In this document: piece by piece, positions 2,770 through 57,904 of the stretch
How the letters are laid out: each line of letters begins with the position of its first letter
Position numbering within the stretch: position 1 is the stretch's first letter
NCBI GenBank assembly: GCA_001598975.1
Contig: BBXU01000291.1
Span: 42,672 to 106,671, forward strand
Origin: Parachlorella kessleri
Taxonomy: Eukaryota > Chlorophyta > Trebouxiophyceae > Chlorellales > Chlorellaceae
Reading direction: 5' to 3'
DNA: 64,000 bases
The notes under the pieces: model-generated
The model's database searches: none
Seen by the model: the letters and a program-made list of their open reading frames with translations, nothing else
What the model was told of the DNA's origin: nothing
Position numbers and translations under genes: made by a program

Positions 2770-3470
2770 GGTCCCGGTAATCGCAGTCAGTAGAGGAAGC
2801 CTCAGAGCCGAGGCTGCAGGCTTGATAAGAAAAACAACGACTTCATTGGCGAGCTGGTGGCTTTTAAGCGGACGGGGACTTAGTCACTGTGTTTGTCAGG
2901 CAAGCACGAATTGTCAGGCCGACTGATTTGAGCGCATGCACGGCTTCCATGCCAGCTCTGGCACGACCTGCTCTTCCCTACATCCCACCCGCAGCTCTTC
3001 AGTCCTGGCCAAGTTTCTGGACAGAACTGTTCACCATGATGGTCTAACTGTTGTCACGAAACCAGCACTACCCTGAAAAGACATGGGAGCAAGGTTGCTC
3101 AGCACACCCCAGCAAGGCTTGCACCCATCTTAGCTTGGCATCACCAGATACTGCCTGCAGGCTCGCCGGGTGCACAAAGCCAGAAAAGGATGGCAATAAC
3201 ACCCAGGTTGGACCGCCAGCAGGGCTAACCTACCGCGCCCCAAGCCCCAACAGCACAACATGCATGCATTCTCACCCTGGCTTTTCATGCTCGTTTGGTG
3301 GCAGCCAGTCCTTGGCACCACAAAAGCAGGCGCCAGCTATTTGAAGATTAGCTCCTGAAAGCTTTCTTCCTCGCTCATCTGTGCGGTGCTCAAGGCTAGT
3401 TGAGCTCCACGGTGACCCCTGCAGGCCATTATGGCATGCGAGGAGCAAAGCTACTGTTGTCCAGGCCATG
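2770..3470. other. Intergenic, upstream of subtilase
   Basis: About 700 bp between the subtilase start and the 3' end of the SAC3-like gene, both on the minus strand. It presumably carries the subtilase promoter and the 3' UTR of the neighbour. I see no convincing coding exon, RNA gene or repeat here. Confidence 0.5.
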
Positions 3471-16533: not shown

Positions 16534-19500
16534 ATGGCCTTCATGCCGTGGTGCAGGATTAGTGTGATTGGCGGCGGCGCCTGGGGCACTGCCCTGGCGC
16601 TGCACGCGTCTCGCATGGGGCACGACACCCTGCTATGGGCCCTGGAGAAGGATGTGGCTGACGCCATCAACACACAGCATGAGAACACCGTCTTCCTGAA
16701 GGTGGGCCTGGGGCTAAACCTGGCGCCTCTGCTATATTGAGCTTGCAGTAGCTCGAGCCTATCAGAAGTGACCCTGAAATCGAAGCTGCGAGGTGAATAT
16801 CTTCTAGCGCCCGGGAACTAAGTGCGCTGCTGGTCTCACACACACTGACTTTCCATCATGCATTGGGCGTCCCACAGCCCTGCAGCCTCCCACCTATGCA
16901 TTTGTTTTCCTGATCCTGTCGGCACAGGGCTTCCCCCTCCCAGAGACCCTTCGGGCCACCAATGACATCATTGAGGCTTTTGACTATGCTGAGGTCATCC
17001 TTACAGTCATCCCAACCCCCTTCCTGGAGCGCACTATCGCCAAGGTCAAAGACCACATCAAGGGAGACAAGGTCAGCTTCTCAACTGTGTAGGAGGCTCC
17101 TTTCAGGCTTTCTTTGTCAGTGGTGGCCGAGGATGTGAGCAGAGGACAGGTAGAGGAAAACTGTGTGGGACAGGTTGTACTTGACTCACAGGAGTGCAGA
17201 TGTGTTGTTAAAACAATGAACATGAAAATGGCAACCCTGTCACATGCAATTCCTTGGAGCCCTGGAGCTTGGTCCTGTCCATTTCCTGAAGTGATGTGGT
17301 CGCATGGACTGGACCTTGATGCTAATTTGCAAACGGCTCTGCAGGCAACCTCAGGAGATGCGATGCTGTCTCCCCATAGCGTTTGTGCGATGTAACAGAC
17401 TGCACGCGCCCTTGCAGGCCATGCTGAACATATTAACGCAACAGAAAAAACTCCTTCCTACCGCCTTGCTCTGCCACTGGCTGCAGATCCTGGTGTCCTG
17501 TACCAAGGGCATCTTGAATGACACGCTAGAGACGCCCCACGACATCCTCAACCGCGTCCTGCCCGACAGGCTGCACTCCAGGTGGGTGGGTGCGTGCCTG
17601 CTAGCCGCGCCTGTGTAGACTCATGCCCCAGGTGCGCCGCACCTACTCTAGATATCCCTGGCGTGGAGGCGGTCTGCCCACCCACCAACAGGGCCTGCTA
17701 GCTGATTCGCAGGCAGCACATGTGGCTATTGCTATCATCATTTCATCATCATGTGCCTCACCACTGTACGCTGGTGACACCACACTGCCAATCTGCCGTG
17801 GCTGTCCATGTCCTTGCCTATGCTCACTCGCCACCTGGCCGCCCTTGTTGCCCCCAGTTGGGGGACTCACGGCAGCATGGTCAGGTGGCGGTACGCTGTT
17901 AGACTAGACTAGCTGGCCGCCCTGCAGGCTGGCTTACCTGAGCGGGCCGTCCTTTGCAGCCGAGGTGGCCCAGGGCAACCCCACCGCGGTGACCATCGCC
18001 AGCGAGAGCGAGGAGGTGGCCCAGAGGGTGCAGGAGCTGCTGTCCACGCCCCGCTTCCGCTGCTACCGCACCACGGATGTCATCGGTGGGTGGGACGCGG
18101 TTGATTGGCTCGGCGCCTGCAAGCTCAGCTGAGGTTGAGGGTGCGGGGACGCCACCCAGGGTTGTGTCGCCCCTCCGTGAATCTGCACCTGGAGAGTGGG
18201 GCAAGCGTTTGCAATGCTATGAGCAAGCCGTGCGTGGCAGCGTGGATGCGGCAGCCTAGGGATGGCAAATGAAGGTGTAGCCGCCGTTGAGTCCATACAC
18301 TGGCAAGAAGCAAACGCTGTGAGGTTGCACCGCAGGCGTGGAGCTGGGTGGTGCGCTGAAGAACGTGCTTGCCATCGGGTGCGGCATGTCCGATGGCCTC
18401 GGCTTTGGCAGCAACGGGCGGGCGGCACTGATCACCCGCGGGTTGGATGAGATCACCCGGCTGGCAGGTGGGTGGGTGGGTGGCTGGCTGGCTGGGGTGG
18501 TACTAGCTGTTTGGGCTGAGTAGCTCTTGAGGAGCTTGCTACCCTGCGAGCACTCGATAGCAGTGGTGAGCCCTAATGAGATGATCCGACTGGCAGGTGG
18601 ATGGCGGGCGGGATCGATACTGGCTGCTACATGGCTGAGCGCTTGAGTGGGACTGCAATTTGCTAGCATGCTGACAAGGAGCGGGCTGAATGATATTTAG
18701 CTGCCTGGCAGGCGGGCGGCTGGCGTTCAGTGTTGCTTGTTTGGTGGACTGCATAGCTGAGACCTAAGAGATGCAGCAGTCTAGCTGATCGTGATGGTGG
18801 TGTGGTAGATGAGTTTGGACGGGAGGGACGAGGGCAGAAATGGGGGCAGTCTGTCCAGTCGGCCGACCTGGGCGCAGTTTCTGGAGGAGTTCATTTGCTG
18901 GCGAGTGTCAGGAACCACCAAGGGCAAGCTGCCATCCAAGACGTGTTGGTCTGCAAGTGGCGTTGTCGCAGCACCGCAGGTTTGTTGCTGGCTTGCGTTC
19001 TGCCAGCCTGCTGGCTCTTCCAAGCCTTGACCAAGTTTTCCTCTTTGTTCTTACTATCACCTGCAGTCGACTCGGGTGCCAACCCACTCACAATGGCAGG
19101 CCTGGCGGGCGTTGGCGACATAGTGCTGACATGCACGGGCGACCTGTCTCGGAACCGTACCGTGGGTGAGCACTTTCCCTGAATGTACAAGGGGTATGAC
19201 ACACTGCTCAGAAGGCTTGTGGCAAACGAGCAGTGCATCCCGGGTTGAGCTCCTTGACTTCCCGTGACGAAACGCTGGGCAGCTCAGTCAATAGCTGGGG
19301 TCGTGCTCTGCCGTTGCCATGCGTCTGGGCCAAGGTAGCGGTCCTTAAGAGGGGCAAGCCGTACCTAGCACCACACCTGGCACACAAAGCGCACAGCGTA
19401 GCCTGGGCAGTGTTTTTTGTTTTGTTTTGCCATGCCAAGCGACAGGCATGCGGCTGACCAAGGGGGGGTTACCGGAGAGGGCCAAACATAGCCGGCACCC

Positions 19501-25901: not shown

Positions 25902-28734
25902 ATGTCGAGAAACCCCATTCCTCAGCGGACAGGCGTGAATGCCCTCCCTGATGATGAACTGGCTCGTGTCTTGGCCTTCCTACGTCCAAGCCTGCATTAC
26001 CTTCTCGTCTGCAAGCGCTGGTGAGTGGATCAGTAGGTCCCTAGAAGGCATCAGGCTTGAAGGGCCTCCGTGGCTCGCCCTTCGACAGTGCGCCTCCTGT
26101 AAATTGCAGGTGCCGCGTGGCTGTGGATGCGTGCCCAGCCTTGTGGCGGTCTGTGCACGTTCTGGGCAGGTCTTACGGCCAGGCGGAAGGCTCTGATGCA
26201 CAGCTTGACGATCAGCCAAGCGGGAGGGAGGCAGTGCTTGCTGGCTTTGAGAATGTGGCTCCACATTTTCATCAGCTGCACTTCATATCTACCATTGACG
26301 TCAGCCTGCCGCAGGTTCCAGAGCTGCTGTCCTTGGCTGCCAACCATAGCCCACACCTGGAGAGCTTGCCGGTGGCAGGGCCTTTGGCTGACAAAGCAGC
26401 CTGCAAGATTGCACTGGAGGCAAGTGTAGCGGCGGCCGGCTGTTGATAGAGCTAAGTGGAACGAGGCTGTGCGGCAGGCCAAACCTGAACTAGCTAACCA
26501 AAAAACAGACCTGAACATGAATATAAACTGACCAAACTACTTACCTCATTGCTTCTTTAATCCCCTTCTCTTGCCCACATGTCCCTATTTGTATGTTTAG
26601 TGTCCTAGTCTTAGGTTTTTGCGCCAGACACGACGCATCTATGGCACTGTCTGCCGCTGTGGGAAGCGTTACTGATTGCAGTGTGTCTCACCCTGATGGC
26701 ACGACTGAATGAGCTGTTCCTTTAGATGTGGTGCAGCATACAGCCGGCAAGGGGGGTATTTATAGGCAGGGTTGGGAGGGAGCACGATCAGGGATGGCAA
26801 CGTAAACGGTTGCTTTTCCCAGCTTGAGCTGTAAATCCCAAGGTACACCAGGTCCATCTTCTGCATGTGTGCAGGCTGTAGGTGCCATGACTGAGTTAAA
26901 AAGCCTCAACCTCACGCCTGGGCGGTACCCCACTGGGTTGGTCCCGACGAGCTACCTGGCACCTCTGTCAGCGCTGACCCAGCTGCACAGCCTCGACCTG
27001 CAGCTTTTCATGTGCTGTGGCCCTCTCCCCGCCACCATCCTGCCCCGCCTGCAGCACCTCACACACCTGGGCTTGAGGCTTTCGTCCTCTCCATTCGGCC
27101 CAGAAGGCGTGTTTGCCTGGGGCGCTGGTGCTGCCGGCAGTCCTCGCCTCCGCTCGCTGCTGCTTTACGGCGCCCGCCTGCCACCCCAGGAAGCCACCGT
27201 GGAGAGCCTGTGCCAGCTGGAGAGCCTGTGCCTGTATGGGCTCTGCCCCACCCCGCGCAAGCTGTCCACCCTTGTGCGCGGCCTGACCGCCATCACCCAC
27301 CTGCGCCTGGGTGACGCCTACCCAGCCGACAGTGCCATGAAGAACAGGCAGCATGCCATGAACCCGGTGGACGTGGGCTGGTCCATGCAGCTACTCTCTG
27401 GCTGCACTCAGCTCGTGCAACTGGAGCTCCAGGACCATGCCTACCTTGTAGCATTGCAGCTGCCACGAGGGGCACTGCGGCAGCTCACCTACCTTTCCCT
27501 GGATATTGCAGACGTGGAGGAGGAGGTGGAGGTGCATGCCTCTTGGGCATCACTGCCCTCGCTGGCACGCCTGCGCGTGACAGCGTGAGTGCCTTGGGGG
27601 CGCGCAAATTTATGTGCTACCACGTTGAGCAGCTGCTGGACGGGCAACGCTGCATGGGCAGGAGACTTTGTATGGAACTGTCAATGCGGTCGGCATGGGA
27701 AGCATCAGGACAAACTGCCAGCCTCTCCCGTGATGCCTCCTTACACAGCACCAGTGTTCTTCCTAACCTGTCCCTTGTTGTCCTGTGCCTCCAGATGCCT
27801 CATCAGGAGTTGACAGACCAGGCAGTTTTTACTACTGATGCTTACTGCTTGATTGGCTCCATTGGTCTCAGGCTACCCAATGCGACCCTGGCCGGACTTA
27901 GAGAGCTGGACATGGGGGCATCCGTCTATGAGTGGGGGTATCAAATGGAGGAATTGCACTTCCCAGACCTGGCCCACTTGGTGGTATCTGACATAAGCTT
28001 TGAGCGGGTAAGCCATGTTAATAAGCGAGCATGTGGGTGGGATATTGGCGATTCTCACACCTTTTCGCCGTACCTCGTTAACACACTGGACCCTAAGTAC
28101 TGAACATTACTCCTGCCCTTCTAGCTCACATATCTGGCAACCCGAAGAGAAACCCAGCCGCAGAGTAGCTGTGAAAACGGCACTGCTGGAGCCTGACCCT
28201 TGCCAGTGCCAGCAGAAACACATGTGTTTAGCTGCACCAAATTACAAGCGGCGGCTTCATGTGTAAGGCATGCCGTTTTGCTGACTGCTTGGACTAGCCG
28301 GGTCACCCCAACGGGGGACTGGATGTTGCAATGCCCCTAGGTGGCAGGAACACACCAAGACCACCACGGGATCTGTCACTATTACGTTTATGCACCTGCT
28401 CACCGCCCTGCTGCTCAACTGCCACACGCAGGGCCTCCCACCGCACGACATGCTGCAGCAGCTCCGCCGGCTGACTGTCCAACATTACAGTCCTGAATGG
28501 AGGCGCGGGCCCAACATCAAGGAACTGCCCAGCGCCCTGGCCCAGGCAACCTCGCTGGAGGTGCTGGACCTGCGGGGCTGCTACAATTTGCAGCTGCGCA
28601 AGGCTGATGCCGAGTTGCTCAACCAGCTGACGAGCCTGCGTGTCTTGGAGGTGGCTTACCCTCAGGAGCCGGAGGTGGTGGCATACTTGTGTGCTCAGGT
28701 GCCACATGTACGTCTGGTGGAAGAGGGGCTGTGA
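25902..28734 (+). CDS. F-box/leucine-rich-repeat protein, copy 1 (intact)
   Basis: Exons 25902-26020, 26110-26419, 26875-27584, 27749-28007 and 28432-28734 close in phase to 566 residues. Residues 15-50 form an F-box (LPDDELARVLAFL, LLVCKRWCRVAV, LWRSVHV), which in this family binds SKP1 in an SCF ubiquitin ligase. The rest is leucine-rich repeats of the plant/FBXL kind (LTQLHSLDLQLF, LPRLQHLTHLGLRL, LRQLTYLSLDI, ATSLEVLDLRGC) and presumably binds the substrate. Intron 2 has a GC donor (gcaagt at 26420). It heads the tandem array. The substrate is unknown. Confidence 0.9.
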
Positions 28735-29455
28735 ATCGGCTGTGGCCTGTGGTTTTCTATAGGACTGTGTTTCCAGCTACGGCTGGGGGAGCCACCTGGG
28801 GTTGATCTGTTGGTTGATGGCTCCAGGTGGCGGGCCAGGCTCAAACATGGGATGGAAGCCTCCTTCGGTTGTTTTGCAAGTAGAAGATTGCACCTTCTCC
28901 AAGGGACATTGCCAAGCTGGCTTAGAGCGGTGGAACGGCTTTCTTGACGCAGGTCGGCAGCGTCTGCAAGCTCAGTATAAGTAAAGGATGCACCATTTCC
29001 CAACGGATGTTGCCCACTCTTGCCTATCCATGCATGTGACTTCGATGTGAAAGTGTGATGCACTTGGCGTACACAGTTTACCTAGTTCGCAATAATTGCC
29101 GTAGCAGTTTGACACCGATATTGATTGTGCGGCCCCCTTTTCCCTCGTGAAGCTCTCGCCAGGGTCCTGGCACAGGCATGATCGGTCTCCGCTTACGCCG
29201 CTAAGCATAGTTGTATATAGGGCAGGTCAGAGCTATATAAAGATCTTCCACGTGTCTCCCTGGAAGAAAGCGTTCTCCATGTTGGTATGCCTCAGAAGTG
29301 GCCAGCGCCTCCGCCCTCGATGCTGGGCGTGCTACCGACAGCTGGATAGAATCCCACCGCAATCCCATGGCAGTGCGAGCGTGCAGTACCCATCATTCCA
29401 TGGTAGTACCCATCATTGCATTAAGACAACATAGCACGTTTATAAACAAGACACC
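28735..29455. promoter_or_regulatory. Spacer and promoter of F-box copy 2
   Basis: About 720 bp. The distal half (from about 29081) is a diverged copy of the region upstream of copy 1. A TATA-like TATATAA lies at 29234-29240, about 220 bp before the ATG. The corresponding place upstream of copy 1 lacks it. Confidence 0.45.
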
Positions 29456-32058
29456 ATGTCGGGGGAAGCTAGCCGTCACAAGACAGGCGTGCACGTCCTG
29501 CCTGATAACGAATTGGCTTATATTTTTTCCTTCCTACGCCCAAGCCTGCACGTCATGCTCGTCTGCCAAAACTGGTAAGCGGAGCTCAGAAAGTCGCTGA
29601 TACTTCAGCCCTGAAGCCCTCCCTTCGCTCCGTCCTTCGACAGGCAGTGCGTCCACTGTAAACCACAGGTGCCGCGTGACTGTGGAAGCGTGCCCAGCCT
29701 GGTGGCGGTCCGTGCACGTTTCAGGCAGACCTTATAAGCGGGTGGAAGGCTCTATGGCACAAGAGATACAAGAGCTTGACGACGACGATCACGACGACCA
29801 GTCAAGCGGCAGGGAGGCAGTGTCCTTCTCACAGCCTGCTGTGCTTGCTGGCTTCAAGAGAGTGGCTCTGCATTTCCATGAGCTACAAATCACTCATGCC
29901 AGCGACATCATTCTGCCACTCGCTCCAGAGCTGCTGGGGTTGGCGGCCAGCCGTAGCCCGCACCTGGAGAGCTTAACATTGGCAGGGGGTTTGGCCGACG
30001 AACAAGCCTGCAGGGCTGCACTGGAGGCAAGTGTGTCTCATCCACAAAAAGCATGACATATTCAGCAGTGGTCCTTTGACGCTCCCCAGACAGCCAGCAC
30101 TGGTGGTGAGATAAGCAGGCATTGGCAGGGAACGCGGGCAGGGGTGGCAACGTGTGGGATACCCAAATTGTTATAAACTTTCGAGGCCCATCGGGTCTGT
30201 CATGCATGTCTGTGCAGGCTATAGGTGCCATGACTGAGTTGAAATGCCTGGAGCTCGAGCCTCGGCTGAATCGCGGCGGGCTTGTCTCAGCGAGCTACCT
30301 GGCACCTCTGTCGGCCCTGACCCAGCTGCGCAGCCTGGACCTACAGCTGTTCATGTGCTGCGGCCCTCTCCCCGCCACCATCCTGCCCCGCCTGCAGCAC
30401 CTCACACACCTGGGCTTGTTCCTGTCAGCCTCTCCATCCAGCCCCGAAGGCGTGGTTGGCTGGGGCGCCGGTGCCGCCGGCAGTCCCCGCCTCCGCTCTC
30501 TGATTCTTTACGACGCCCGCCTGCCGCCCGAGGAAGCCACCGTGGCCAGCCTTGGCCAGCTGGAGGTTCTGCGCGTGTTGGGCCTCTGCCCCACCCCTCG
30601 CCACCTGTCCACCCTTGTGCGCAGCCTGACGGCCCTCACCTACCTGCGGCTGGGTGACGCCTACCCAGCGGACAGTGCAGAGGAGGTCAGGGAGCCTGGC
30701 CTCAACAAGTTGGACTTGGACTGGTCCATGCAGTTGGTCTCTGGCTGCAGGCAGCTAGCGCGCCTTGAGCTTCTGGAGCATGCCGAGCTTGTGAGCTTGC
30801 AGCTGCCACGAGGGGCACTGCGGCAGCTCACATACCTGGCCCTGGAATATGAAGACGTGGAGGACGTGGAGGAGCTAGAGGTGCACGCCTCTTGGGCCTC
30901 CCTGTCCTCGCTGGCATGCCTGCGCTTGACAGTGTGAGTTAGTCGAGGGTGCAGAGGTTTGTGGTGTCAACTTTATGACATGTTGAGCTGCTGCTGGAAG
31001 GGCGGCCTTGCCTAAGCAGCAGACTTTAAGTAGACCTGCCCGTGCAATCAGCATCATGGTCGGTATGGGAAAGGTGGGCATGGGGAGCATCAGACTTGCT
31101 AGCCTCACCGGTGACGCCTCCCCCACTCAGTGCCAGTGTGCTTGCTGATCTATTCCTTGTCGAGGTGTCCTCTGGATGCCTCAGCGAGGTGCTGGGAGAC
31201 AAGGCAGCCGACGCAGCTTACATTACTGATGCTTACTGCTTGCTTGGCTGCAGGGAGCTGAGGCTGCCCAACGCAACTCTAGCTGGGCTCAGAGAGCTGG
31301 ATGTGGGGGCAACTCTATATGATTTGGGGGACGACGAGGACCCGCTGCACTGCCCAGACCTCACCCACTTGGTGGTGTCTGATATCAGCTTGGTCAACCG
31401 TAGGAGGGTAAGCCAAGGCGACGAGGAGACTTGAACGCGTGGGGCGTTGGCAATCCCCACGTTACTCCTGGCTTGCTGCCTTGCGACACTGGCAATCACA
31501 AGGCAAACCTCAGCCGCAGTTTAGCTGTGGATTGGCGCTGTGCTTGGCCTAACCCTTCCCAATGCCAGCAGGAGTGCATGTTACCTGCACCAATCAACAA
31601 CCGGCGGCTCCATGCTAGACATGCCGCGTTGCTTGCCTGCCAGGCCGTCAGACATCCCAAAGGGGGACTGCCTGTTTTTATGCCCTAGGTGCCAGGAACT
31701 CAGCAAGACCGTGCACCTATCGTTGAAGCATGTACGCACCTTCTTGCGTGCTGCTCACCTGCGCTACACGCAGGGCCTCCCACCGCAGCACATGCTGCAA
31801 CAGCTCCGCCGGCTGACTGTCCAGCATTATGGCCACGGATGGCTGCGCGACTCCGGATTAATGGGGGTGCCCAGCAGCCTGGCCCAGGCAACCTCGCTGG
31901 AGGTGCTGGACATGAGGGGCTGCCGCGAGTTGCAGCTGCGCAAGGCTGATGCCGAGTTGCTGAGCCAAGCCTGCACACCTTGGAGGTGGCTAAGCCTCAG
32001 GAGCCGGAGGTGGTGGCACACTTGCGTGCTCAGGTGCCACATGTGCGTCTGGTGGTAA
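29456..32058 (+). CDS. F-box/leucine-rich-repeat protein, copy 2 (frameshifted C terminus)
   Basis: Exons 29456-29574, 29669-30026, 30218-30933, 31131-31407 and 31774-32058 close in phase to 584 residues. The F-box is LPDNELAYIFSFL with LVCQNWCRVTV and WWRSVHV. Compared with copy 1, exon 2 gains an acidic insertion (ELDDDDHDDQ). Repeats such as LTQLRSLDLQLF and LRQLTYLALEY follow. In the last exon a net 7-bp deletion near 31965 shifts the frame. The final repeat is replaced by a Trp/Arg/Cys-rich tail (WRWLSLRSRRWWHTC) ending at TAA 32056-32058, where copy 1 reads a normal LRR end. Downstream, the old frame is still recognisable to about 32068. Intron 2 has a GC donor (30027). The F-box and most repeats remain, so function may persist. 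Confidence 0.8.
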
Positions 32059-33134
32059 AAGGGTCGTGAAGATACTCTTTTGCCTGGGGGTTGTTACAGA
32101 ATTGTGATCACTGCTACAGCAACGGGGGCCACCTGGGATAGATGTGTTGATTGCTTGGCCCCAGGAAGCGCGGCACCTTGAAACACCAAGCTGGAGGGCA
32201 CGTTTCTTGCAAGTAGGATGGGACCCCATATAAGCGGTGATGTGACTTATATGAAAAGGTTTTGCAGTGCAGACAGCTCGCATGGTGGAAGAGGTGCACA
32301 CTTTCCACTAGCCCTTTTTCCTTTTTTAATCCTTGTTGCCTGCCCCTGCATTTATTTGTAGTTGTATTATGGAAGTATGTTATACTCGGAGTTCTATGGA
32401 AAAGTTGGAATACTCATGCAAGTTGTGGTGCAACTACCATTAGCAACTTTATGCGCTGCTGGGCAGGCAAAGGGCAGGTTGAAGAGGTAAGCGCACTCTG
32501 CTGTGGTGGTAGCCCAGCCACAGCATTATACAGGGCGGGTTGTTTAGGTCCTTGATTCCTTGCAAACAAGTTCTGACAGCAACAAAGGCGGCTCGTTTAG
32601 TGAGGTGCAATACACATTTGGATCCGCCTTTAACGTGGCTGCCGTGTTCTCCAGCCCCGTCCCTCCCTGTTGGGAGTCTTAAGAGTCATTGGCACAGTGG
32701 AGCACATTTCCTGTTGGATTGCTTGGCACTGTTGGCTTGGCAGCATCCCATACGCTCTGTTCCTGACGTCTTTGCCAGCGGGTGAGGGGAGTTAGGAAAG
32801 TTTTGCTTTCAACCGGTTTCTCCGCTGATGCTGCTGCAGCTCCTCCCGGCGCCACTACAACAAGAAATCTAGCATCTGGATAGACGCCAGCTTGCGTTGC
32901 TGACTGCGGTGACATGTGGCCTTGTTGCCTCAGTCTGTGCTTTGGATGCTGAGCTCTTTCCGTAGTCCTTTAAACCGCGGCTAGCCGTGCATCTTTGTGC
33001 ATGCTCCACATTGTATCTGCCATCGTTCGACACCAGCAAGGCAACAGGCATTCTCAACCAGGGAAGCTAAGTGCACTTAGCATCCCTCACAGCCTGATCA
33101 CACTACCTGCACCCAAACGCCAAGCAAAGCCGTC
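32059..33134. other. Spacer between F-box copies 2 and 3
   Basis: About 1.1 kb of lower-GC sequence. The last ~130 bp (from about 33000) match the region just upstream of copy 4. No coding exon is recognised. Confidence 0.5.
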
Positions 33135-35566
33135 ATGGCGAGAGGCCGCCATCAGATGAGCTTTGGAAGCCTTCCTGACGAGTGCTTGGCCGAAATCTTC
33201 AGCTATCTACGCAACTTGGACATGCTCCTTGTTTGCAAGCGCTGGTAAGGCGGAGTTCGAGCCCACTGCGTAGTTCAGTTGTGTAGGCTGCAGTTAGACG
33301 TCCTCCTTGCGCGTGCAGGTGCCGGGTGGGCCTGGAGAACTGCCCTGCCTGGTGGCGGTCGGTGCAGGTTTTTGGCGGAGCTTACAGTTTGAAGGTCCAA
33401 CAACATGGGGCCTTAAGCAGAAGGACCGCAGCGAGGCAGTGCCGCTGTCTCTACTGAAGCCTGCCGTGCTGGCTGGCTTTGCGAAGGTCGCTCCCCACAT
33501 TCGGCAGCTCGACTTCAGCAACATCAGCGATGAGCTGGAGCCTCTAATTCCCCAGCTGCTGGAAGTAGCCGCCAGGTACAGCCTCAGGCTGGAGAGGGTG
33601 GAGCAGCCAATAGTACTGGCTGGCAAGAATGCCTGCAAGATGGCCTTCAAGGTAAATATGCCAATTCTGTTAATTATACTTGCTTGTGCTCAAGGTTGTT
33701 TGCCTCTTAGGCACACCACCAGCTCTTACCTGACGCAAGCGACAGCCGTCCACGCAGCAACAAGCAATCCTTGCAGTATAACTACCTTGCGCCGGTGACC
33801 GCTGTCACAGAGTACTGAGCACCATGGGCCTGCATGCCCTGCAGGCTATTGGGACCAGGAGCGCCCTGGAGAGCCTTGTCTTTGACCCCATGTCACCACA
33901 GTCTGGTGGTGTTCCTCTGAGCTATCTGACCCCTCTGTCAGCCCTCACCCAGCTGTGCCACCTGGACATGTGCCTTGTCGGCTGCCATGGCAGCCTGCCG
34001 CCCACCATCCTGCCCCGCCTACAATGCCTCACGCACCTGGGCCTCCACTTCGCAGCCCCCACAAAGGGTCCGCCGCAGCGGGTCAGCTGGGGCGGTGGCG
34101 CTCTTGACAGCGCACGCCTGCATGTCCTGCGGCTCTCTAATGCCTGGCTTCCACCCGAAGAGGCTACCCTTGCCAGCCTTGGGCAGTTGGAAGAGCTGCA
34201 GCTGCTGGAGGCCTGCCTTGTCCCAACAGCGCTGCCCACAGTGTTGCATTGCCTGTCAGGCTTGACTTGCCTGGAACTGGGCGAGGTCCGCATGGGAGAC
34301 AAGAGGCTCCCACGAGGCCATGCAGGGGCTAGTGTCTCCGATGACGCGTGGTACTTGCACCTGGTTACCGGCTGCAGCCAGCTGCGGGAATTGAAGCTCT
34401 CCAGGGCAGCTTTACTACGGCTGCAGACCCCGCCTGGAGCCCTGCAGCACCTATCTACTTTGAGCATAGACGACCCGCGTTGAATGCAGAAGTTGCACAT
34501 AGCTGGCTCCTGGGCAACACTGCCCTCGCTGGTGTGCCTGCGGCTGGCAGGGTGCGTTGGCCTGGCTTGGCTTCCTGTGTGTTGCCATTGGCCTACCAAG
34601 CCTGCAGTCACGCTGCCAGTGCAGTCTGGAACAGAGCCGATGTAGCAGCTTGTCTGGGGGGAATAGTAAGGGATGTTGCAAGTCTAGCGCTTTTACTAGC
34701 AAGTCTGCTGGCTAGCATCCCTTTGCCAGATATGACACCCTGGCCTTTGGAATGCATTACACCGCCTTCAGTGGACACTACTATCTTGTCGCTCAGTGGG
34801 CTTTGGAGCCATGAAGGATGGCTCGTTGGTGATCTGCTGCAGGCTCGCAGTGGGCGGCATCGCCTGCCCTAGCGGGAGCCTGGCGGGCATCGAAGTGCTG
34901 GATATGGGGGCCTTTGAGTTTGACTGGGAGCACTGTCAGCTGACCTTCCCACACCTGACGTGGCTTGCAATGACCGAGTCCAGCCTGCACCGGGTAAGCT
35001 GTCAGCACTAGGGAGGCATCCAACCCTTGGGTTGACAATGGTTGGCATCCTACTCTTAGGTTGGCCACTGGGTTTTCAGGACCGTTAACAGCCGCAGCCG
35101 CTGGCCGCCAAATTGTGCTGCCTGCTGGAAGCTACCTTCAATGCTTTCACTGCAGCACTGGCTGCTGTCCTGTCACCATTCCCAGCACACGTAAATATGT
35201 GCAGCTGTGCCCCACCAGCCAGCACCAACTACCCTAACTGTGCAGGAACCCCCACCCAAGCGCATCCTGCGGCGGCTGCGCCACCTGTCTTTGCAGCCCT
35301 CGTTTGTCCGCTATGGTCGGCAGGCAGGCCTGGAGCATTTCCCTAGGAACCTGTCCCAGGCAACCTCACTTGAGGTGCTGGACCTAAGCAGTTGTGGCCA
35401 GGTAGAGCTACGTGAGGTCGATGCTGATGCATTGGCAGATGAAGAGCAGATGAAGAGTCTCAAGCGCCTTGCGGTAAACGTGTACCAGGAGCCAGAGGTC
35501 ATGGACTTCTTGCGCAAGCAGCTGCCTGAGCTGGAGATTGTCGAGGTTGAATCTGTGCTGCGGTAG
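33135..35566 (+). pseudogene. F-box/leucine-rich-repeat pseudogene, copy 3
   Basis: Exon-equivalents 33135-33244, 33319-33651, 33845-34551, 34797-34993 and 35246-35566 align with copy 4. Three lesions are visible. (a) Exon 2 lacks one G at about 33391 (333 versus 334 bp), throwing the F-box and the rest out of frame. (b) Exon 3 has an in-frame TGA at 34481-34483 where copy 4 has CGC (Arg). (c) Exon 4 is one base longer (197 versus 196 bp). The F-box start (GSLPDECLAEIFSYL, LLVCKRW) and the repeats (LTQLCHLDMCLVGC, ATSLEVLDLSSC) are otherwise preserved. The pattern fits recent loss of function. The second intron has an ordinary GT donor (gtaaat), unlike the other three copies. Confidence 0.88.
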
Positions 35567-36696
35567 ACAAATGCTGGAGCTGGCGGAGTGGGTCCTTGAC
35601 GACTCTGCTGTTCAGTACCGTACATGGAAGCTGAGTGTGCTCATAGCCGAGCTGGGGCAGCCTGAAGCCATTTCCCCCCTAGTGCACTTCTCCATTCGAC
35701 TCGAAATAGGGGAGACTAGCTGCAAGCCTGAAACCCCTCCTAGCTTGCCCTGCCTCTTTATGAAATTTATAATGCGAATATCTCCTCACCCTGTAATGCT
35801 TACTGCTGACTTACCAGCGCAGCGTTGCCTCGAGGATTTGACTACTGCAGCAGCCTGGCAAGCAAAGGGACAATACCCCACCGGGGGGTGCTCGGACTAG
35901 ATCCTGATATCAACTCCATGGGCCATGTCCACATTGCCATGGCTGTAGTGCAGCCAAGGCTGCCATGTATGGGCTCTAAGTTTCATGTGCCGACTTGAGC
36001 GTGTGCCTCTCACACCCACCGTGGAACCTTTTAACCATTACTCTCCCGGTCCTGACGTTCAACCACCAGAATCACACAGGCTCTCTTGTATCAGTTTCTA
36101 CAGCTTTTTGCTCCCCGTCTTCTTTGGCCGCGCAAGCCACTTGCAAGGGAGGTGCCACCCGAGTTTGGGACCAAACGGCTGCAAACTGGGGCCTTACGGA
36201 CACCATTCCCACGGCGACAGGGTCGTTTCCTGAGGCAGGATGCCCTGCCCGGCACTGTGCAACTCAGTTTGGATATAGTGGAGGCTGATCTCAAATCTCG
36301 CCTCCGGTTGTTGTGCATGGTTGTTGTGCCTTTGGTATGCCATAAATGTACGCCCAGCTTGGGGTTGGGTGCAGACAATGTCTGTTGGGGTTGGGTGCAG
36401 ACAAAATGTCTTTTCGCTAAATCTGGCTGTATGCTGCAATTAGGTGGCAATGTGGGCGGCACGGTAGAATTGCTGCATGATTCAATGCCAGCGCCTCGTT
36501 TGCGCGCGTGCTTTGCATGCTGAAGGTCGATTCTCAAAAATCACGGCTGCTTTGTGCATGCTTCACACATGGCTTCACATTGTATCTGCCATCGTTCAAA
36601 ACCAGCAAGGCAACAGGCAATCTCAACCAGGGATGACTTTCTCTTAGCCTACAGCCTGATCACGCTACCTGCACCCAAACGCCAGGCAAAGCCGTC
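35567..36696. other. Spacer between F-box copies 3 and 4
   Basis: About 1.1 kb. The first ~400 bp resemble the region after copy 4. The last ~130 bp resemble the region before copy 3. Nothing coding is recognised. Confidence 0.5.
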
Positions 36697-39159
36697 ATGG
36701 CGAAAGGAAACCGCCATCAGTTGTGCTTTGGAAGCCTTCCTGACGAGTGCTTGGCCGAAATCTTCAGCTATCTACGCAACTTGGACATGCTCCTTGTCTG
36801 CAAGCGCTGGTAAGGCGGAGTTCGAGCCCACTGCGTAGTTCAGTTGTGTAGGCTGCAGTTAGACGTCCTCCTTGCGCGTGCAGGTGCCGGGTGGGCCTGG
36901 AGAACTGCCCTGCCTGGTGGCGGTCGGTGCAGGTTTTTGGCGGAGCTTACAGTTTGGAAGGTCCAACAACATGGGGCCTTAAGCAGAAGGACCGCAGCGA
37001 GGCAGTGCAGCTGTTACTACTGAAGCCTGCTATACTGGCTGGCTTTACAAAGGTGGCTCCCCACGTTCGGCAGCTCGACTTCAGCAACATCAACATTGAG
37101 CTGGTGCCTCTGATTCCCCAGCTGCTGGAAATGGCCGCTAGGTACAGCCTCAGGCTGGCGGGGTTAGAGCAGCCAATAGTACTGGCCGACAAAAAAGCCT
37201 GCGAAATGGCCCTTCAGGCAAGTACGCCAACTCTGTTGTCCACAGTTGCTTTTTGCTCAATGGGTTAAATGCCTTTCAGGCACACTACCAGCTCTTACGT
37301 GACGCAATCAACAACCGTCCAAGCAGCACAAGCAAGTCCTTGTGGTAGTTTATAGGTCGTTGACCACCACACAGAGCACTAGGCTTAAGGGCCTGCTTGC
37401 CCTGCAGGCTATTGGGGGCATGGGCGCCCTGAAGAGCCTTGTCTTCGACCCCATGTCACCACAACCTGGTGGTGTGCCATTGAGCTATCTAACCCCTCTG
37501 TCAGCACTTACCCAGCTGTGCCACCTGGACATGTGCCTTGTCGGCTGCCATGGCAGCCTGCCGCCCGCCATCCTGCCCCGCCTACAGTGCCTCACACACC
37601 TGGGCCTGGACTTCTGCGCCCCCACCAAGGGGCCACCGCAGCGGGTCAGCTGGGGCGGCGATGCTAATGGCAGTGCACGCCTGCATGTCCTGCGGCTCTG
37701 TAATGCCTGGCTGCCACCCGAGGAGGCTACCCTTGCCAGCCTTGGCCAACTGGAGGAGCTACAGTTGCTGGGGGACTGCTTCGTTCCAACGGCACTGCCC
37801 ACGGTCTTGCACAGCCTGTCAGGGCTGAAATGGCTAGAAGTAGAGGAGACCCGCAGGGAAGACAATGGACTCCCCCAAGGCTCCGCAGAGGATGGTGTCA
37901 GTGACGATCAGTGGTACCTGCAGCTGGCAGCCGGCTGCAGCCAGCTGCGCGGTCTAAGACTCCCCAGGGGAGCCGTGCTAGGGCTGGAGGTCCCACCTGG
38001 GGCGCTACAGCACCTGTCTACTTTGAGCATAGACGACCCGAATCGCACGCAGGATTTGCACATGGCTGGCTCATGGGCGAAACTGCCCTCACTGGAGTGC
38101 CTGCAGCTGGCAGGGTGGGTTGGCCAGGCTTACTATTTGTTGATGGCGGCAGGTTGTGCGCTCATAGAGTTGGGTACGAAATGTGCTAACGGGGTGCTGT
38201 GCTGGTGGGATGTTATTGTTTGCTGCCGGTGGCCCGCCAGTCGTGAAATCACGCTGACAGTGCCTCGGTGAGCATAGCAGTTGGTCTGAGTAAACAAACT
38301 GAAATTGGACGTTTGCAGTTTCTACTAGCAAGTCCGCTGGCTAATCTCCCGTTGTCAAAGATGACACCCTGCCCCGTTGGACTAGGCTTTCATCAAATTG
38401 CAGCTGAGTAGTCTCTGGTGGCGCAGCGGGCTTTGGGTCCTGAAGGGTAGCTATATCCTGAAATGCTGCAGGCTTTCGGTGCACGGTCTTACTTGCGCTA
38501 CAGAGGGCCTGACGGGCATCAAACGGCTGGACATGGGGGCTTTTGACTTGGCCTGGGAGCACTGTCAGCTGAGCTTCCCACACCTGACGTGGCTCGCTAT
38601 GAGCGACGGCAGCCTGCAATCGGTAAGCCGTGTGCACTATGAAGGCATCCTCCTTGTAGGTTGAAAGTTTGCTTTGCCCCTGCGGACTATGGACGGTTGC
38701 AGGCAAGATAGGCTGCCAGGCAGTGCTGCCCGCTGGAAGCCACGTTTACTGTTTGCATAGCAGCCTCAGCAGTTGTCGTTAGAGCCTTGAAAGCAAAGTT
38801 GAGCTCATGGAGCCGCCCCCCGCCGACTAGCTACACTGACTGTGCAGGGGCCCCCACCCAAGCGTATCCTGCGGCGGCTGCACCACCTGTCTGTGCACCC
38901 CTCCTCCATCCGCTCATTTGCCCGGCCGGCAGGGCTGCAGCAGCTCCCTAGGAACCTGTCCCAGGCAACCTCACTCAGGGTGCTGGACCTAAGCAATTGT
39001 GACCAGGTAATGCTGCGTGAGGTTGATGCTGATGCACTGGAGCAGCTGAAGAGCCTCAGGCGCCTTGAGGTAAATGAATACCAGCGGCAAGAGGTCATGG
39101 AGTTCTTGCGCAAGCAGCTGCCAGAGCTGGAGATTGTCGAGGTTGAGCTTGAACCTTGA
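36697..39159 (+). CDS. F-box/leucine-rich-repeat protein, copy 4 (intact)
   Basis: Exons 36697-36809, 36884-37217, 37408-38114, 38427-38622 and 38848-39159 close in phase to 553 residues. The N-terminal F-box is GSLPDECLAEIFSYL, LLVCKRWCRVGL, WWRSVQV. Leucine-rich repeats follow (HVRQLDFSNINIE, LTQLCHLDMCLVGC, LQCLTHLGLDF, LSGLKWLEVEE, ATSLRVLDLSNCDQV) and the tail is acidic (LELEIVEV-like). It is the functional partner of pseudogene copy 3. Intron 2 has a GC donor (gcaagt at 37218). Family role: substrate adaptor of an SCF ubiquitin ligase; the substrate is unknown. Confidence 0.9.
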
Positions 39160-48360: not shown

Positions 48361-49863
48361 TGTTTGCTGGCCGATCAACAAGGGTGGTTGGCTTACTACT
48401 GACAAGGCCAGCAGGCCAAGACAGAAGCAGTAACCTGCAATAAGCTTATGTAGCACAGATTAGGCTTGCAACCATCTTTGCCAAGCTTGGGCTTTGGAGC
48501 TTCGTCCATGCGCTTCCCGCCATCGGCTGTGCTGCAGACATGTGCAGATGTCACCCAGCCTGGCAGGGCACGCTCGTAAGATAGCAGGGTTTCTAAATGT
48601 GGGAAGCACATCAGTCGTGGTCAGGCCCGTGCATAAGATACGGGAAGGAGCAAACTCAGAGCTGCACTACGGAACCGAGGATACGCCATAGTCCAGTGGA
48701 TGTTTCATATTTTGGTAGGTAGGTTGGCTCAATCGTTGAATGAATGCAATCTGGCAGATCCGCAGTGTAAGTAGCTGTATAGGATGTTCACCATGCTGTG
48801 CACCCAGCATTAAGTAAGTAGCTGTGCTAACTGCCAACTTGTACTGGCCATTGAGTGTTCACTATTAGCATGGGTGGCAGGTAGTGCGAACAGGGAGTGA
48901 GTTGAGCTGGACTGACAGGGCTGGATGCAGAATGTGCCTGAGATTACACAGATCTGGCTGATTCCCACCGTTTCTACCTGATAATGGTAGTAGGCAATGT
49001 CAACAGGGTAGTGGGTGGATGAAGTGCATTTACAATTCCTGTCGTTCAGCCCCGGCTAGTGCTTAGGGGTGGTACTTGGAATCTTTTAGTTTGTCAGCAT
49101 AGTGTCTCCTGCCTCTCAACTAACCCTACTGCGGGGGACTCAAGGGCAGCATGGTGAGGTGTCAGTTACTGCTGCGACGAGACTTCATGACAGGTGTACT
49201 AGCCGGTGCTAGTCTTACTGATCAGGCTGCTCACGCCATTATTGCAAATTGGCTACAAGCATTAGAAAGACACCATGATTACGAATTCCAAGGAATAAAA
49301 CTGGAATCAAAACAGTGTTGACTGCTCTTCTCTGGCAACGTCAGCCTTTTGCCTAGAACACAAATATCAGGGATACACTGATGGGTAGTCAGGAGGTGGA
49401 AAATGTTCAGAAACCTGATACCTGGGCCAACAATCAAACTAGCAGGCAGAACACACCGATACCAGAGCCAAGTACCATGCCCAATGCTGACGCACTGATA
49501 CACAGCGTATGTGCACATCAGAGCCACATGCAACCAAGGGCAAGCTGATAGCGATTCACCAGTTCAACCATGCTATTTAGCAGCGCCATCTGTTACAAAC
49601 GCATTGTACATTAGCCCTACACTCACGACGGGCAGCATCTGTCCAACAGAGGAGGCGCAATCTGCACCACTACCACGCCCAGAGATATCCATACGCCAGC
49701 CAACCCCAAGCAACTAGATGGGACAACCCAACCACAGCACCCCCATCACATTGCCCTGTCAAATACACAGGACACATGCAAAATGGACAGTACCTCCCAA
49801 ACAGACAGACATCCCATGTGGGAAGCCCTGTCCTTCACCGACACAGCAGCAGCACCACTACAC
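48361..49863. other. Intergenic between two minus-strand genes
   Basis: About 1.5 kb of lower-GC sequence holding the EH gene promoter and the RbcS 3' UTR. It contains one copy of a short dispersed repeat (48872-48923, matching 54755-54808) and a 28-bp segment (49133-49160) resembling 17861-17886. No coding exon is recognised. Confidence 0.5.
48872..48923. repeat. Short dispersed repeat, copy 1
   Basis: The segment gggtggcaggtagtgcgaac at 48872 and actgacagggctg at 48911 match, with similar spacing, 54755-54808 in an intron of the antiporter gene. It may be a remnant of a short mobile or duplicated element. Confidence 0.45.
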
Positions 49864-52800
49864 TCACTGGCGCAGCACCTCCCGGGCCAGGGACACCCAG
49901 CCGTCAGCCAGCCCGCGCACAGCGGCAGAGTCGCCGGCCTGGGCAGTCTCCTTCACATACTCTGCCAGGCGCTGCTTGGACTCCAGCTCCAGGTGTGCGT
50001 CGGGGGCCAGCAGCAGCCAGGAGCCAACAAACTCGACCAGGGAGTCGCCGCGCACGCCGGCCGCGCTGAGCTGCTTGGGCAGCGGGCCCAGCAGGGCATA
50101 GGCCGCGGCGGTGCGCTCGTCAAAGCCGCCAGACATCAGCTGCTTGGAGATGGAGGCCAGTGCGGCAGAGACGATGTCACGGGCGTCGCGGCCCAGGGAG
50201 CCGGCACTGGACAGGGACTCTGACAGGGACTCGTAGATGCCCAGCAGGGAGGGGCGCAGGCGGGCAGGCGCCAGCAGCAGCGCCGCCAGGTGGTAGGTGC
50301 CGGGCACGTTGGCGCGCTTGAGCGCAGCGTGCACCTCGCGGTCCAGCACCAGCATGCGCGCCAGGTCGGAGGGGCTGCCGGCGGGGGTGTAGGAGGGCTT
50401 GGGGGCCGGGGAATAAGAGGGTGCGGGGGAGCCTGCAACAAGGAGAGAGCAGGGGTGGGTCAGTACTTGCAGGCAAAGAACAAGCTGGTGCAGCTCAAAT
50501 GCAATGTGCGCTGTCCTGCAACACTCTGTGGCTGTGCTCAAGTCACAGATGCCACCCATGAAATACATCCAGATAGCATCAGCGATCCTTACAGGCAGAA
50601 CAGAGCCGCAGCAGCACCAGGTAGCATGGCAATGCCGAGGTTGCCGATGACATGTGCTAGCTGTCACCAAGGGCCAACCGTCCCAACATGGAGTAGCACG
50701 TCAGGAACTGCAGAAGCCTGCACTCACTGTATGTGGCAGCAGGGGCGCTCTGCCGCACGGGGGTCACCACCCGGGAGGAGGGGCGGGGAGAGGAGGAGGG
50801 GCGGGGCACCGCTGAGGCGGCGGGGCGCTGCGCCACGGGCCGGGAGGACGGCCTGATGGGCGCGCTGGAGGGGCGCGGGGAGGACGACGGCCGGGCGGGG
50901 GCAGACGGGGCGGGCCGGCTCGGGGCGGAGACGGGCCTGGAGGAGGGCCTCACAGGGGCGCTGGAGGGCCGGGAGCTGGTGGGGCGGGAGGAGGGGCGCA
51001 CCGGGGCACTGGAGGGGCGGGAGGAGGGGCGGGAGGGGGTGGCCACGCGGCCGCGGCTGGCGCTGGCGCCAGAGTTCCACGAGCTCAGGTCCACGCTCTT
51101 GTAGCCCTCATCACCCCTGCAGGCAGAGAGCGGGGCAGCAACGGAGGGTAAGAAAACAGGCCGCAGACTTGCACAGAGCGCAGGTTTGAGTGCAGACCAC
51201 TATTCCAGTAATAGCTGCTGCATATGGCTCTTACAATCTTTACGAACACAGTCCAAGCCAAACAACCACAGCACCAGGGAAACCTCGCAATGCAGAACTG
51301 CCAAGCAAGCGACCACATAGGGTAGTGTTGCTTTACGTACGTTGCAGCGAGGGAAGCAGGCGAGTGCCAAGCAAATAGAACCGAGGAGTCAACAGAGAGA
51401 CTTACACGGAGCGCTCTGAGGGGTCGCGGTGCTCATAAGAGGACTCAGGGCGGTGCACCAGGAAGCCTGCACAGAATCACAAACAGGCTTGTGTGACAAG
51501 GCTATGTGACAACTGTAGAGGGCACGTGGAAACAAAGCTAAATACAAAGAGTGGGCGAAAGTCAAGGTAGCTGCCAACTGTGAGAAGTGAAGCACTTGCG
51601 TCAACCCCCAGCCAATCCTGCCAGCCACAATTGCGGCATGTGTAGTGGACACCCTTTGCAGGCAAAACGCTGGCAGGCAAACCTAAGTAAGTAAACAAGT
51701 CTTTGCCATGCAAATGCCCTCTGAAGTCAGGCAACCTTCAACCTTCCAAGCCAACCATCCAGCCACCACCCACCCAACAAAAGGCAGTTCAGGCAGAGGC
51801 AGCCCTTCGCGACAAGACATCTCCATGCGCCTGCACAGGCGTGTAGCGTGGGCAGGGTCTCTACATTCTGCACCTCACTACTCATCACTCACCGGTGATC
51901 TGCACCTGGCGCGTTGCGTCAAAGGCCACCAGGCGGATGTAGGCGTTGGGGAAGGCGCGCGTGCACTCGTCAACCTCCTGCAGCACCTGGCCCGGGTCGG
52001 TGCAGCCAAACATGGGCAGCTTCCACATGGTCCAGTAGCGGTTGTCTGCAACCAGGCAGGGCAAGGGGCCAGTGTCAGCAACAACTCCCCAGCACCGAGG
52101 CAAGGATAAGCTCTGCAGCAGATCTCGCGCGGTCTAGGGGATGTGGGAAGGCAGCTGGACGCATAGGGGGCCCAGGCTCATCCACTAGGGCACTTGCATG
52201 CACCAACCCACTAGCACTGCAGACACTGGCTGTTCCCTGCCTTAAGCCTCCTGCAGACCAGAGACAAAGCAAAGCACGGGCAAGGCCGCACAATGGAAGC
52301 ATACGCTCGCTCCAAGATTTCATGAGCTTGAGACTCCATATGTTCTGCATTTTGGCTGATACTCCAGGCACAATATGACTGCTCCAGGCAGCCTAGCAAG
52401 CAGGCGATGGCCTCCCTGCTCACCGTAGTAGTTGCAAGTCACGTCGCCCATACGCCTGGCGCTGGTGCTGTCAACGTAGGCAGTATTGGGGTCAGAGAAC
52501 TCCAAGCACGGGGTGGTGCCTGCAGGGCCAGGTGAGGAAGCAGATGTGAGTTAAGGGATGCACATGACAACGGGCTACAGACTGAAGTAGTGCAGTGGCG
52601 AGAGGAGCCCAAATATTATAACGGACAATGTGTGGCACGGCTGATAGCCGCAGCTCGAGTTATCCCCAAGTCCCCGCTATTCCCAAAGTCCCCGTCATCG
52701 GGGGAGACCAGTCTGCACTCCAGGTAACACAGCATCCCCGCTTGCGGCCCTTCCCAGTACTAGACTTCCCAGCGCTCCATGATATCATTGCTCGCGACAG

Positions 52801-53243
52801 TCTGTGCTATCTGCTATCGACTGCTACTGCATGCTAGCTGGCAATACAGCAAAGGCACAACACTCAGCCTAAGCAATGCCAAGCCATGTGGAGCAATGTG
52901 CTCACCGTTCTCAATGATAGCATCAACCTGCTTGGCGATCTGGGGGGCGGTCAGGGGGGGCAGGTAGGAGAAGGTCTCGAAGAACTGCAGCGCACAAAGG
53001 CAACCGGGTTAGTCGCCATGAATGGGGTGGGCTGACGCACCAAGACGGGGAACAACCTTGCCTTGCTCCCCATGCATCCAGGGGACCTCGCACCTTGTTC
53101 CGGAGAGGCGTCCAGACTTGCATTGCGGTTGTTTTGTGCACGGTGCCATTGGAAACCTTGGGCAGGCGGGCATTGGCAGATGCGGGCTTCAGCAGGCCAG
53201 CAGGACGCTGTGCCAGGAGGGGAGTGTGCACCAGAGCAGACAT
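49864..53243 (-). CDS. RBCS: Rubisco small subunit fused to a Pro/Ser/Arg repeat linker and helical domain (spliced form)
   Basis: Seven exons on the minus strand: 53243-53094, 52984-52906, 52519-52424, 52045-51893, 51466-51406, 51116-50728, 50432-49864. Phases close through every junction to 498 residues. Residues 1-40 are a plastid transit peptide. Residues 41-180 are a complete small subunit ([73 protein letters not shown]) ending HRDPSERSV, as in free RbcS. Residues 181-309 are a linker, with no acidic residue after the first dozen positions, built on repeats of [13 protein letters not shown]. Residues 310-498 begin with PSYSPAP/PSYTPA and continue as an Ala/Leu-rich predicted helical domain ([19 protein letters not shown] to [15 protein letters not shown]) that I do not recognise. 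The RbcS call is firm; the fusion rests on splice signals and frame. It may scaffold Rubisco in a pyrenoid. Confidence 0.85.
50728..51116 (-). repeat. Pro/Ser/Arg repeat exon of the RbcS fusion
   Basis: Exon 6 encodes about 130 residues. After [17 protein letters not shown] come roughly four imperfect repeats of the type RPSSAP(V/I)RPSSRP, variously extended by (T/V)[12 protein letters not shown] or [11 protein letters not shown]. There are many Arg and no Asp/Glu after the first residues, so it should be highly basic and disordered. Strong G+C strand asymmetry and the long antisense open frames here are by-products. Confidence 0.85.
51400..51407 (-). promoter_or_regulatory. Stop codon overlapping a splice donor (isoform switch)
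   Basis: Read on the minus strand the site is GT|GTAAGT. Unspliced it reads GTG TAA (Val, stop). Spliced at GT|GT, the first two bases join the G of exon 6 to make GTG (Val), and the stop is removed. The donor matches the GTAAGT consensus exactly. Confidence 0.8.
51402..53243 (-). CDS. RBCS: Rubisco small subunit, conventional form (last intron retained)
   Basis: The same first five exons, read through the donor of the fifth intron, reach TAA at 51404-51402 directly after GAG CGC TCC GTG. The precursor is 180 residues: a 40-residue transit peptide plus a 140-residue mature subunit, which is the mature length in Chlamydomonas. It assembles as L8S8 with plastid-encoded RbcL in the stroma. At residues ~75-80 it reads NGTTPCLEF where most homologues have a Trp two residues before PCLEF. 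Production of this form needs retention of the fifth intron or polyadenylation inside it (51117-51405). Confidence 0.75.
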
Positions 53244-56900: not shown

Positions 56901-57904
56901 CTTGCCCTCGGTCTCTTTCAAAATGGCAATCTGCAGCCAGCAGCCTTGGGTCAGCCCAAAGCCAGTCGACCGACAAACAAACACTTTAATGCACTTTCAG
57001 GGTTGCTGAATGACAGCTGACACCCCGCCAAACTGCTGTCTAACCCTTGCTGCCACGTGCGCAATCCTTCGAAACTGCACTAGGCCTGCAGCGGTTGCTG
57101 GCAGTTTCTGCATAAGCTGTGCACCCATCCTCTCAATATCCACGTTTGGGACAGATGAGATGCAGGCCGTGCCGGCTCACAAGAGATAACCCGACAGTGG
57201 TCTTGTCCCACGCAACTGGTAGACGGGTGGCGTGTTCAACGCATGCGAGCACCAAGCTGGGTTTTGCTTGTACTATACACTCACTGCAGATGCAGGTGAT
57301 CTTGCCACCGCCAGCGTGGCCACCAGGGTCGCGACAGCAGTGCCTGTGCCTTGCGGCAGCTTGGCAGTGAAGGGTACGTACGGGACAAGGCCCAGGGTGC
57401 AAGCAAAGACCAGCACCCAGGTGCACACTGCTATTCCCAGTGTTATCCAGGTTACCTGCAATGCAAGGGGCAGTTATGGCCAAGGTGGTGGTCCTTTCTT
57501 CGGGGGCTTTGCAGTGCAGTGATGCCTAGCACACTGCTAACCAGCAGCACCACAATTGTGACACAGAGATGTCTAGCAACAATTATTGAGATACCAGTAT
57601 CAAGCTCAAAATGCCATGCTGCACGGACCTGGCGCCTGATTTTGCGCAGCTCTGCCAGCTGTAGCTCTGCCCCCGCTGCCAGCGCTATCAAACTGAGGCA
57701 GGTGTGGTCCACTGGCCGCAGCGCAGCAAGCCCCTCTGCGCTGACAGCGCCTAGCCCTGCTGGCCCACTCACTACGCCGGCTATCAAGTAACCCGTTATA
57801 AGGGGCAGGAGGCGCAGCTTCCCTGCCAGCCTGCCTGCCAAGTACCAGGCGGGGGATAGCAGGGCAAGAGTCAAGAGGTTGGCTGGGAGGGAGTCCCCAA
57901 ACAT
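53918..57904 (-). CDS. CPA2-family cation/proton antiporter (KefB/KEA-like membrane protein)
   Basis: Exons on the minus strand: 57904-57629, 57455-57285, 56930-56808, 56549-56326 (end tentative), 56067-55984, 55804-55651, 55095-54949, 54712-54587, 54474-54404, 54065-53918. Phases close to about 507 residues. Hydrophobic segments match the CPA2 exchanger core: LLPLITGYLIAGVVSGPAGL, CLSLIALAAGAELQL, LGIAVCTWVLVFACTLGL, VATLVATLAVARSPASA, VMAVVVFKDVLVFVCFA, EPLLACVTAGLVVANTR, NVLFFGLVGASLKL, TLWVALLLYLVRLAGIWVG and GVALGLARIVSGAF. A short soluble tail follows. The family exchanges K+ or Na+ for H+; the membrane (plasma, plastid or vacuole) is not shown. The loop after GAMRQPYFAA looks long, and one transmembrane helix before FFLSEAVHGE may be in a missed exon. 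No TrkA-N domain is seen. Confidence 0.8.
54755..54808. repeat. Short dispersed repeat, copy 2 (intronic)
   Basis: gggtggccagtagtgcgaac at 54755 and tactgacagggctg at 54795 match 48872-48923. This copy sits in an intron of the antiporter gene. Confidence 0.45.

Follow-up and report, generated by a model that had tools for sequence, protein, structure and literature searches.

A Rubisco small subunit fused in frame to a basic linker and a predicted helical domain: a candidate built-in scaffold in a green alga

Introduction

In the parts of the pyrenoid and linker literature on which we drew (PMC13159521, PMC11570498, PMC7853309, PMC9833052, PMC10288592, PMC12712428, PMC10473226), Rubisco holoenzymes are joined through repeated helices in separate proteins: EPYC1, which binds helices of the small subunit (RbcS), and CsLinker, which binds RbcL. 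As far as these sources extend, both proteins are kept only in close relatives, which leaves room for other ways of condensing Rubisco in other lineages. The small-subunit (SSU)-like domain of cyanobacterial CcmM35 occupies a groove and does not take the place of RbcS, and its likeness to RbcS is called coincidental in the portion of the source available (PMC9833052). Among the titles and opening lines of abstracts covered, mostly from open-access literature, none described a eukaryotic RbcS with a C-terminal scaffold.

Here we analyse an RbcS gene that continues in frame into a linker and a further domain. The window is the whole stretch of DNA that was analysed, 64,000 nucleotides in length, and positions refer to it unless a contig is named. 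RbcS loci were sought with Pfam family PF00101 in the genome assembly, which comprises 50.9 Mb in 1642 contigs.

Results

A seven-exon gene encodes a small subunit with a C-terminal extension

A reading made from the sequence alone had proposed that a Rubisco small subunit is fused in frame to a linker and a helical domain, with seven exons whose phases close to give a 498-residue product. This gene model was confirmed (Table 1). All seven exons check out, GT..AG boundaries are present at six of six introns, the phases close, and 1497 nt yield 498 residues. Across exons 6 and 7 a single frame is open to the final stop, while each of the other two contains five stops. The parts named in that reading also held up: the full 140-residue small subunit is borne out by a PF00101 match and by alignment of the entire mature sequence, the Pro/Ser/Arg repeat linker spans 150 residues rich in Ser, Pro, Ala and Arg with ten RPSS motifs, and the Ala/Leu-rich helical domain, put at about 170 residues, comprises 168, with a best predicted model that is helical. 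The fusion itself is upheld by a second copy, a conserved junction, a constrained tail and the lack of a separate in-frame start, as described below. The end of the transit peptide is defined by alignment, without a cleavage predictor. The tailed subunit would have a mass of roughly 49 kDa, against 16.2 kDa for one that lacks the tail.

Table 1. Positions of the fused RbcS gene and its parts in the window
Feature	Position	Strand	Remarks
Whole fused gene, start to stop codon	49864..53243	minus	7 exons, 6 GT..AG introns
Exons 1-7	53243-53094, 52984-52906, 52519-52424, 52045-51893, 51466-51406, 51116-50728, 50432-49864	minus	
Transit peptide, residues 1-40	53124..53243	minus	end placed by alignment to other mature SSUs
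Mature small subunit, residues 41-180	51116..53123	minus	exons 1-5 and first base of exon 6
Intron 5 donor GTAAGT	51400..51405	minus	shares letters with an in-frame TAA stop (51404-51402) that is read on intron retention
Intron 5, 289 bases	51117..51405	minus	
Linker, residues 181-330	50371..51115	minus	exon 6, continuing into exon 7
C-terminal domain, residues 331-498	49867..50370	minus	predicted nine-helix bundle

Other recognisable genes lie elsewhere in the window. The nearest recognised open reading frame upstream of the RbcS gene (57455-57904, minus strand) is part of a Na+/H+ exchanger-like gene, although its PF00999 match (E 9.1e-6, 25.2 bits) is just under the cut-off of 26.2. Several similar leucine-rich open reading frames stand in a row at 26824-38271 (plus strand), their likeness judged by eye only; one of them (30122-30934, plus) scores 24.5 bits against PF23598, under the cut-off of 40. 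The N-terminal exon of a proteasome RPN1 gene is found at 5933-6571 (plus; PF17781, 156.6 bits).

The small subunit is of the green type

The window small subunit scored 122.1 bits against PF00101 (cut-off 27), and its mature part aligns over all 140 residues, through to the final RSV, with PDB entries for the small subunits of Chlorella and Chlamydomonas. Its best PDB match was Chlorella sorokiniana 8q04 at 212.5 bits (8q05 has the same sequence), which makes a trebouxiophyte host likely. Judged by sequence, it is a form I (green-type) Rubisco small subunit, and it may plausibly assemble into L8S8.

The positions of RbcS contacted by EPYC1 are, in the numbering that we take to apply, D23, E24, M87, L90 and V94. 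Positions 23, 24, 87 and 94 read A, P, G and D in the window and G, D, G and Q in the second fused copy (P2, described below); in the tandem genes they read N, D, S and S (A1) and N, D, S and N (A2). All five RbcS genes of the assembly retain L90, and gene D keeps D23 and E24. Since the contact positions are mostly changed in the fused copies, EPYC1-type binding is not expected there.

A second fused copy and the other RbcS genes

Five small-subunit loci were found with PF00101: the window gene, the tandem pair A1 and A2 on contig C1315, gene D on C1148, and one on C123. In the C123 gene the small subunit is followed by a linker like that of the window gene, within which the contig breaks off. 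When the genome was searched with the tail, the only matches were the window itself and the end of contig C122, where a piece opens inside the linker and three further exons lead on into the tail; the window tail lies in one exon. Based on consecutive contig numbering, matching architecture, and the position of both breaks within the linker, we infer that C123 and C122 each carry one half of the same second fused gene, P2. At the contig edge of the C122 piece (L012, minus strand, from 4461), about 35 bases contain two ATCCAGG words and keep to no single clear linker frame, which may reflect misassembly at a repeat.

A1 encodes an ordinary, tail-less small subunit, which gives at least one such further gene. 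Its 1600 downstream bases contain one ARPTS in one frame and no other linker or tail motif, and the corresponding 1600 bases downstream of D contain no linker or tail motif. The contig carrying A2 (end of C1315, L006 5730-6006) ends 274 bases past the GTG TAA GC stop, so that a tail exon could still lie beyond the contig end, though the genome search with the tail gave no third tail. The RbcS encoded by D (L008, minus strand) is divergent, sharing 56-58% identity with the fused copies, and its end is SSFSSMWQQ rather than RSV, followed by a TAG stop. The fused small subunits are themselves only 71-73% identical to A1 and A2. The fusion thus most simply predates the split of the window and P2 copies, and would have been carried by a distinct small-subunit lineage. 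By eye, a repeat-like stretch (around CTGTTCGCACTACCTGCCACCC) was seen near the RbcS gene at window ~48850-48945 (minus strand) and again at L006 ~3060-3420, in the interval that separates A1 from A2. No rbcL gene was recovered from the assembly.

The small subunit and the tail are constrained between the two copies

The window and P2 small subunits are 87.9% identical over 140 codons, with a dN/dS of 0.19. The tails are 66.5% identical over 164 aligned codons, with a dN/dS of 0.57 (bootstrap 0.40-0.82). Differences at first, second and third codon positions number 15/12/37 in the small subunit (140 codons) and 43/30/60 in the tail (164 codons), so that the third position is favoured in both. 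By these measures, the tail is under purifying constraint. The first 40 codons of the linker differ at 14/11/7 positions with a dN/dS of 1.9, and show no sign of constraint on exact sequence between the copies. Comparison of intron 5 between the window and P2 (blastn-short, E<=10) returned nothing longer than 10 bases; this intron has diverged beyond alignment while the small subunit and the tail still align. A chance joining of open reading frames is ruled out by the codon-position bias together with the occurrence, in the same genome, of a diverged second copy with the same junction, linker type and tail.

A stop codon overlaps the splice donor at the junction

The junction reads CGC TCC GT|GTAAGT in the window and CGC TCT GT|GTGAGT in P2. 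If intron 5 is kept, an in-frame stop within the donor letters (TAA in the window, TGA in P2) is read, giving an ordinary small subunit that ends in ERSV or QRSV. Both fused copies open exon 6 with an identical GGGTGATGAGGGC, which is in phase with GT|G, the codon that the intron divides. A1 and A2 end CGC TCC GTG TAA GC, and GTAAGC is also the modelled donor of A1 intron 3. The tail-less stop context of A1 is one base away from the window donor, and the fusion therefore most simply arose by use of the stop as a donor: a former stop (GTG TAA G) appears to have turned into a splice donor. Unspliced RNA would then give the ordinary small subunit, and spliced RNA would add the tail. Such an overlap is not in itself proof of regulated splicing, since any GTAAGT or GTGAGT donor that follows a codon-start GT makes a stop of this kind.

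Properties of the linker and the tail

The linker contains 28.0% Ser, 22.7% Pro, 13.3% Ala and 12.7% Arg, with a net charge of +18 and a pI of 12; by its composition, it is probably a basic, low-complexity spacer of disordered type. EPYC1 is likewise basic and rich in Ser, Pro, Ala and Arg, and the EPYC1-type Rubisco-binding motif is W[RK]xx[VILA]. Neither the window protein nor the two pieces of P2 contain this motif, and KWSP does not occur in the window protein. The single match of the linker to PDB sequences was an antibody chain (E 1.3). A search of the genome for an EPYC1 homologue with a repeat query, in which 15 candidates were scored, gave 10 weak matches with E<=10. The best of them (E 6.5e-4, 35% identity) lies in the window at ~17975-18217 (plus strand), contains one internal TGA stop and is probably low complexity; the result leaves room for other linkers.

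For the Ala/Leu-rich tail, the best AlphaFold model is a nine-helix bundle with a pLDDT of 86.8 and a pTM of 0.86. The five models range from 86.8 to 43.6, only one or two of them being confident, and the isolated second half of the P2 tail reached a pLDDT of only 57.4. PF00101 was the sole Pfam match of the whole protein at E<=1, leaving the tail without a Pfam family. The tail gave no PDB sequence match at E<=10, either as a single sequence or as a profile, and among 123 stretches that fit a pattern in a collection of prokaryotic genomes, none was confirmed as a relative. A fold search with the predicted tail returned no Foldseek match at E<=0.001; the VIA-align list consisted largely of designed helical proteins, and absence from that list excludes nothing. 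An internal duplication of the tail was considered and rejected, the half-versus-half score being no better than that of shuffles (fractions of 0.341 and 0.346 of 1000 reach it).

Discussion

We think it somewhat probable that an RbcS gene in this alga gained a C-terminal scaffold, with splicing setting the tailed share of its product and the tails connecting or anchoring holoenzymes in a way that helps the pyrenoid matrix. Splicing would add the tail and intron retention would give the plain small subunit, so that the tailed share in L8S8 would be set both by gene copy and by splicing. The tailed subunit would assemble through its normal fold and display its tail on the enzyme surface. There, the +18 linker, by its charge and repeated RPSS motifs, and the helical domain, by self-association or Rubisco binding, could connect or anchor neighbouring holoenzymes; the folded tail would serve as the sticker and the basic linker as the spacer, which may also bind acidic surfaces. 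The pyrenoid matrix would thereby be helped along, a pyrenoid in this alga being assumed. Entry into L8S8 and crosslinking of Rubisco are both plausible from the sequence. We favour a built-in scaffold because the small subunit is present eight times per holoenzyme, and tails on some of these would be multivalent without a second protein. The LCIB-type carbonic anhydrase family has 18 matches over the cut-off in this genome, on 7 contigs (C194, C269, C250, C328, C362, C1486 and C1574), which fits a CO2-concentrating mechanism. A more elaborate version, in which a single gene provides subunits with and without the tail and the regulation of splicing adjusts how many tails each holoenzyme carries, so condensing or releasing the pyrenoid with no separate EPYC1-like linker, is a tentative proposal that we would not expect to hold in full, although it deserves consideration.

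The main rival to a built-in scaffold is that the tail anchors or recruits: the linker would space a helical domain that docks Rubisco to a thylakoid tubule, the starch sheath, activase or carbonic anhydrase, and a separate linker would condense the enzyme. Each tail has one folded-type domain and not a series of repeated stickers. The linker lacks a Rubisco-binding motif and its first 40 codons show no constraint, so the part that does the work may be the folded tail, which might anchor Rubisco and not crosslink it. However, a docking partner would be needed, and with eight subunits per holoenzyme a self-binding tail would be multivalent in any case, so that anchor and crosslinker overlap. 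We consider an anchor rather unlikely on balance, although it is a serious competitor.

The remaining alternatives concern the RNA. Intron 5 might mostly be kept, in which case the gene would chiefly make the ordinary small subunit and the tail would be a low-level or condition-specific product. The in-frame stop inside the donor of both copies speaks for this, as does the exon base at -1, which is T in both copies and weaker than the usual G. TGTAA, a poly(A) signal, occurs in intron 5 of both copies, but the same word is present in window intron 6 and P2 intron 3, and the idea of intronic polyadenylation therefore carries little weight. Positions +1 to +6 of the donors are nonetheless GTAAGT and GTGAGT, and the tail is constrained in both copies; a minor role for the tail strikes us as improbable. 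Still less credible, and in our judgement very improbable, is a pair of separate genes, in which an ordinary small subunit ends at 51402 and a downstream linker/helical gene has its own promoter and start. The stop codon would indeed end the small subunit if intron 5 were kept. In both copies, however, the linker frame upstream of exon 6 meets stops within intron 5, and the last of these is followed by no ATG before exon 6 begins, which makes a separate downstream gene unlikely; a start codon of their own for the downstream exons, which the sequence-only reading had named as evidence against fusion, was thus not found, and we rejected this gene model. The shared start of exon 6, in phase with GT|G, argues in the same direction. 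So does the occurrence of the tail in this genome only behind two small-subunit genes, one of these links being drawn across a contig gap.

If the favoured reading of a built-in scaffold is correct, such a small subunit would represent a compact alternative route to condensation, in which one gene supplies both subunit and linker, an attractive feature for engineering. Were inclusion of the tail to depend on splicing at the overlapping stop, the junction would offer a testable switch for pyrenoid assembly. The locus would also provide a clear case of domain gain by a stop codon turned splice donor.

As far as EPYC1 of Chlamydomonas and CsLinker of Chlorella sorokiniana are described in the sources available, they resemble the present protein in being basic, Ser/Pro/Ala/Arg-rich sequences of disordered type that are tied to Rubisco in a green alga. 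In contrast to the separate polypeptides of that class, the linker here is in frame with RbcS, and the spacer is thus covalent to the small subunit, lacks W[RK]xx[VILA], and ends in one folded-type domain. Cyanobacterial CcmM and the activase-like protein ALC also join a small-subunit fold to other modules, although in both, according to the part of the source available, the SSU-like domains are C-terminal (PMC7059596), whereas here the small subunit is N-terminal and is a genuine RbcS with a transit peptide. The diatom linker PYCO1 shares the use of repeated short motifs in a linker tied to Rubisco, but in the accounts available it is a separate protein with KWSP stickers, which are absent here. 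An RbcS with a condensing C-terminal extension has been discussed for hornworts; if this holds, a distant lineage too would possess a small subunit whose own tail condenses Rubisco, and what may be peculiar to this alga is the overlap of stop and donor together with the folded-type tail. Set against that precedent, what appears distinctive here is the distant lineage, the folded-type tail and the stop/donor junction.
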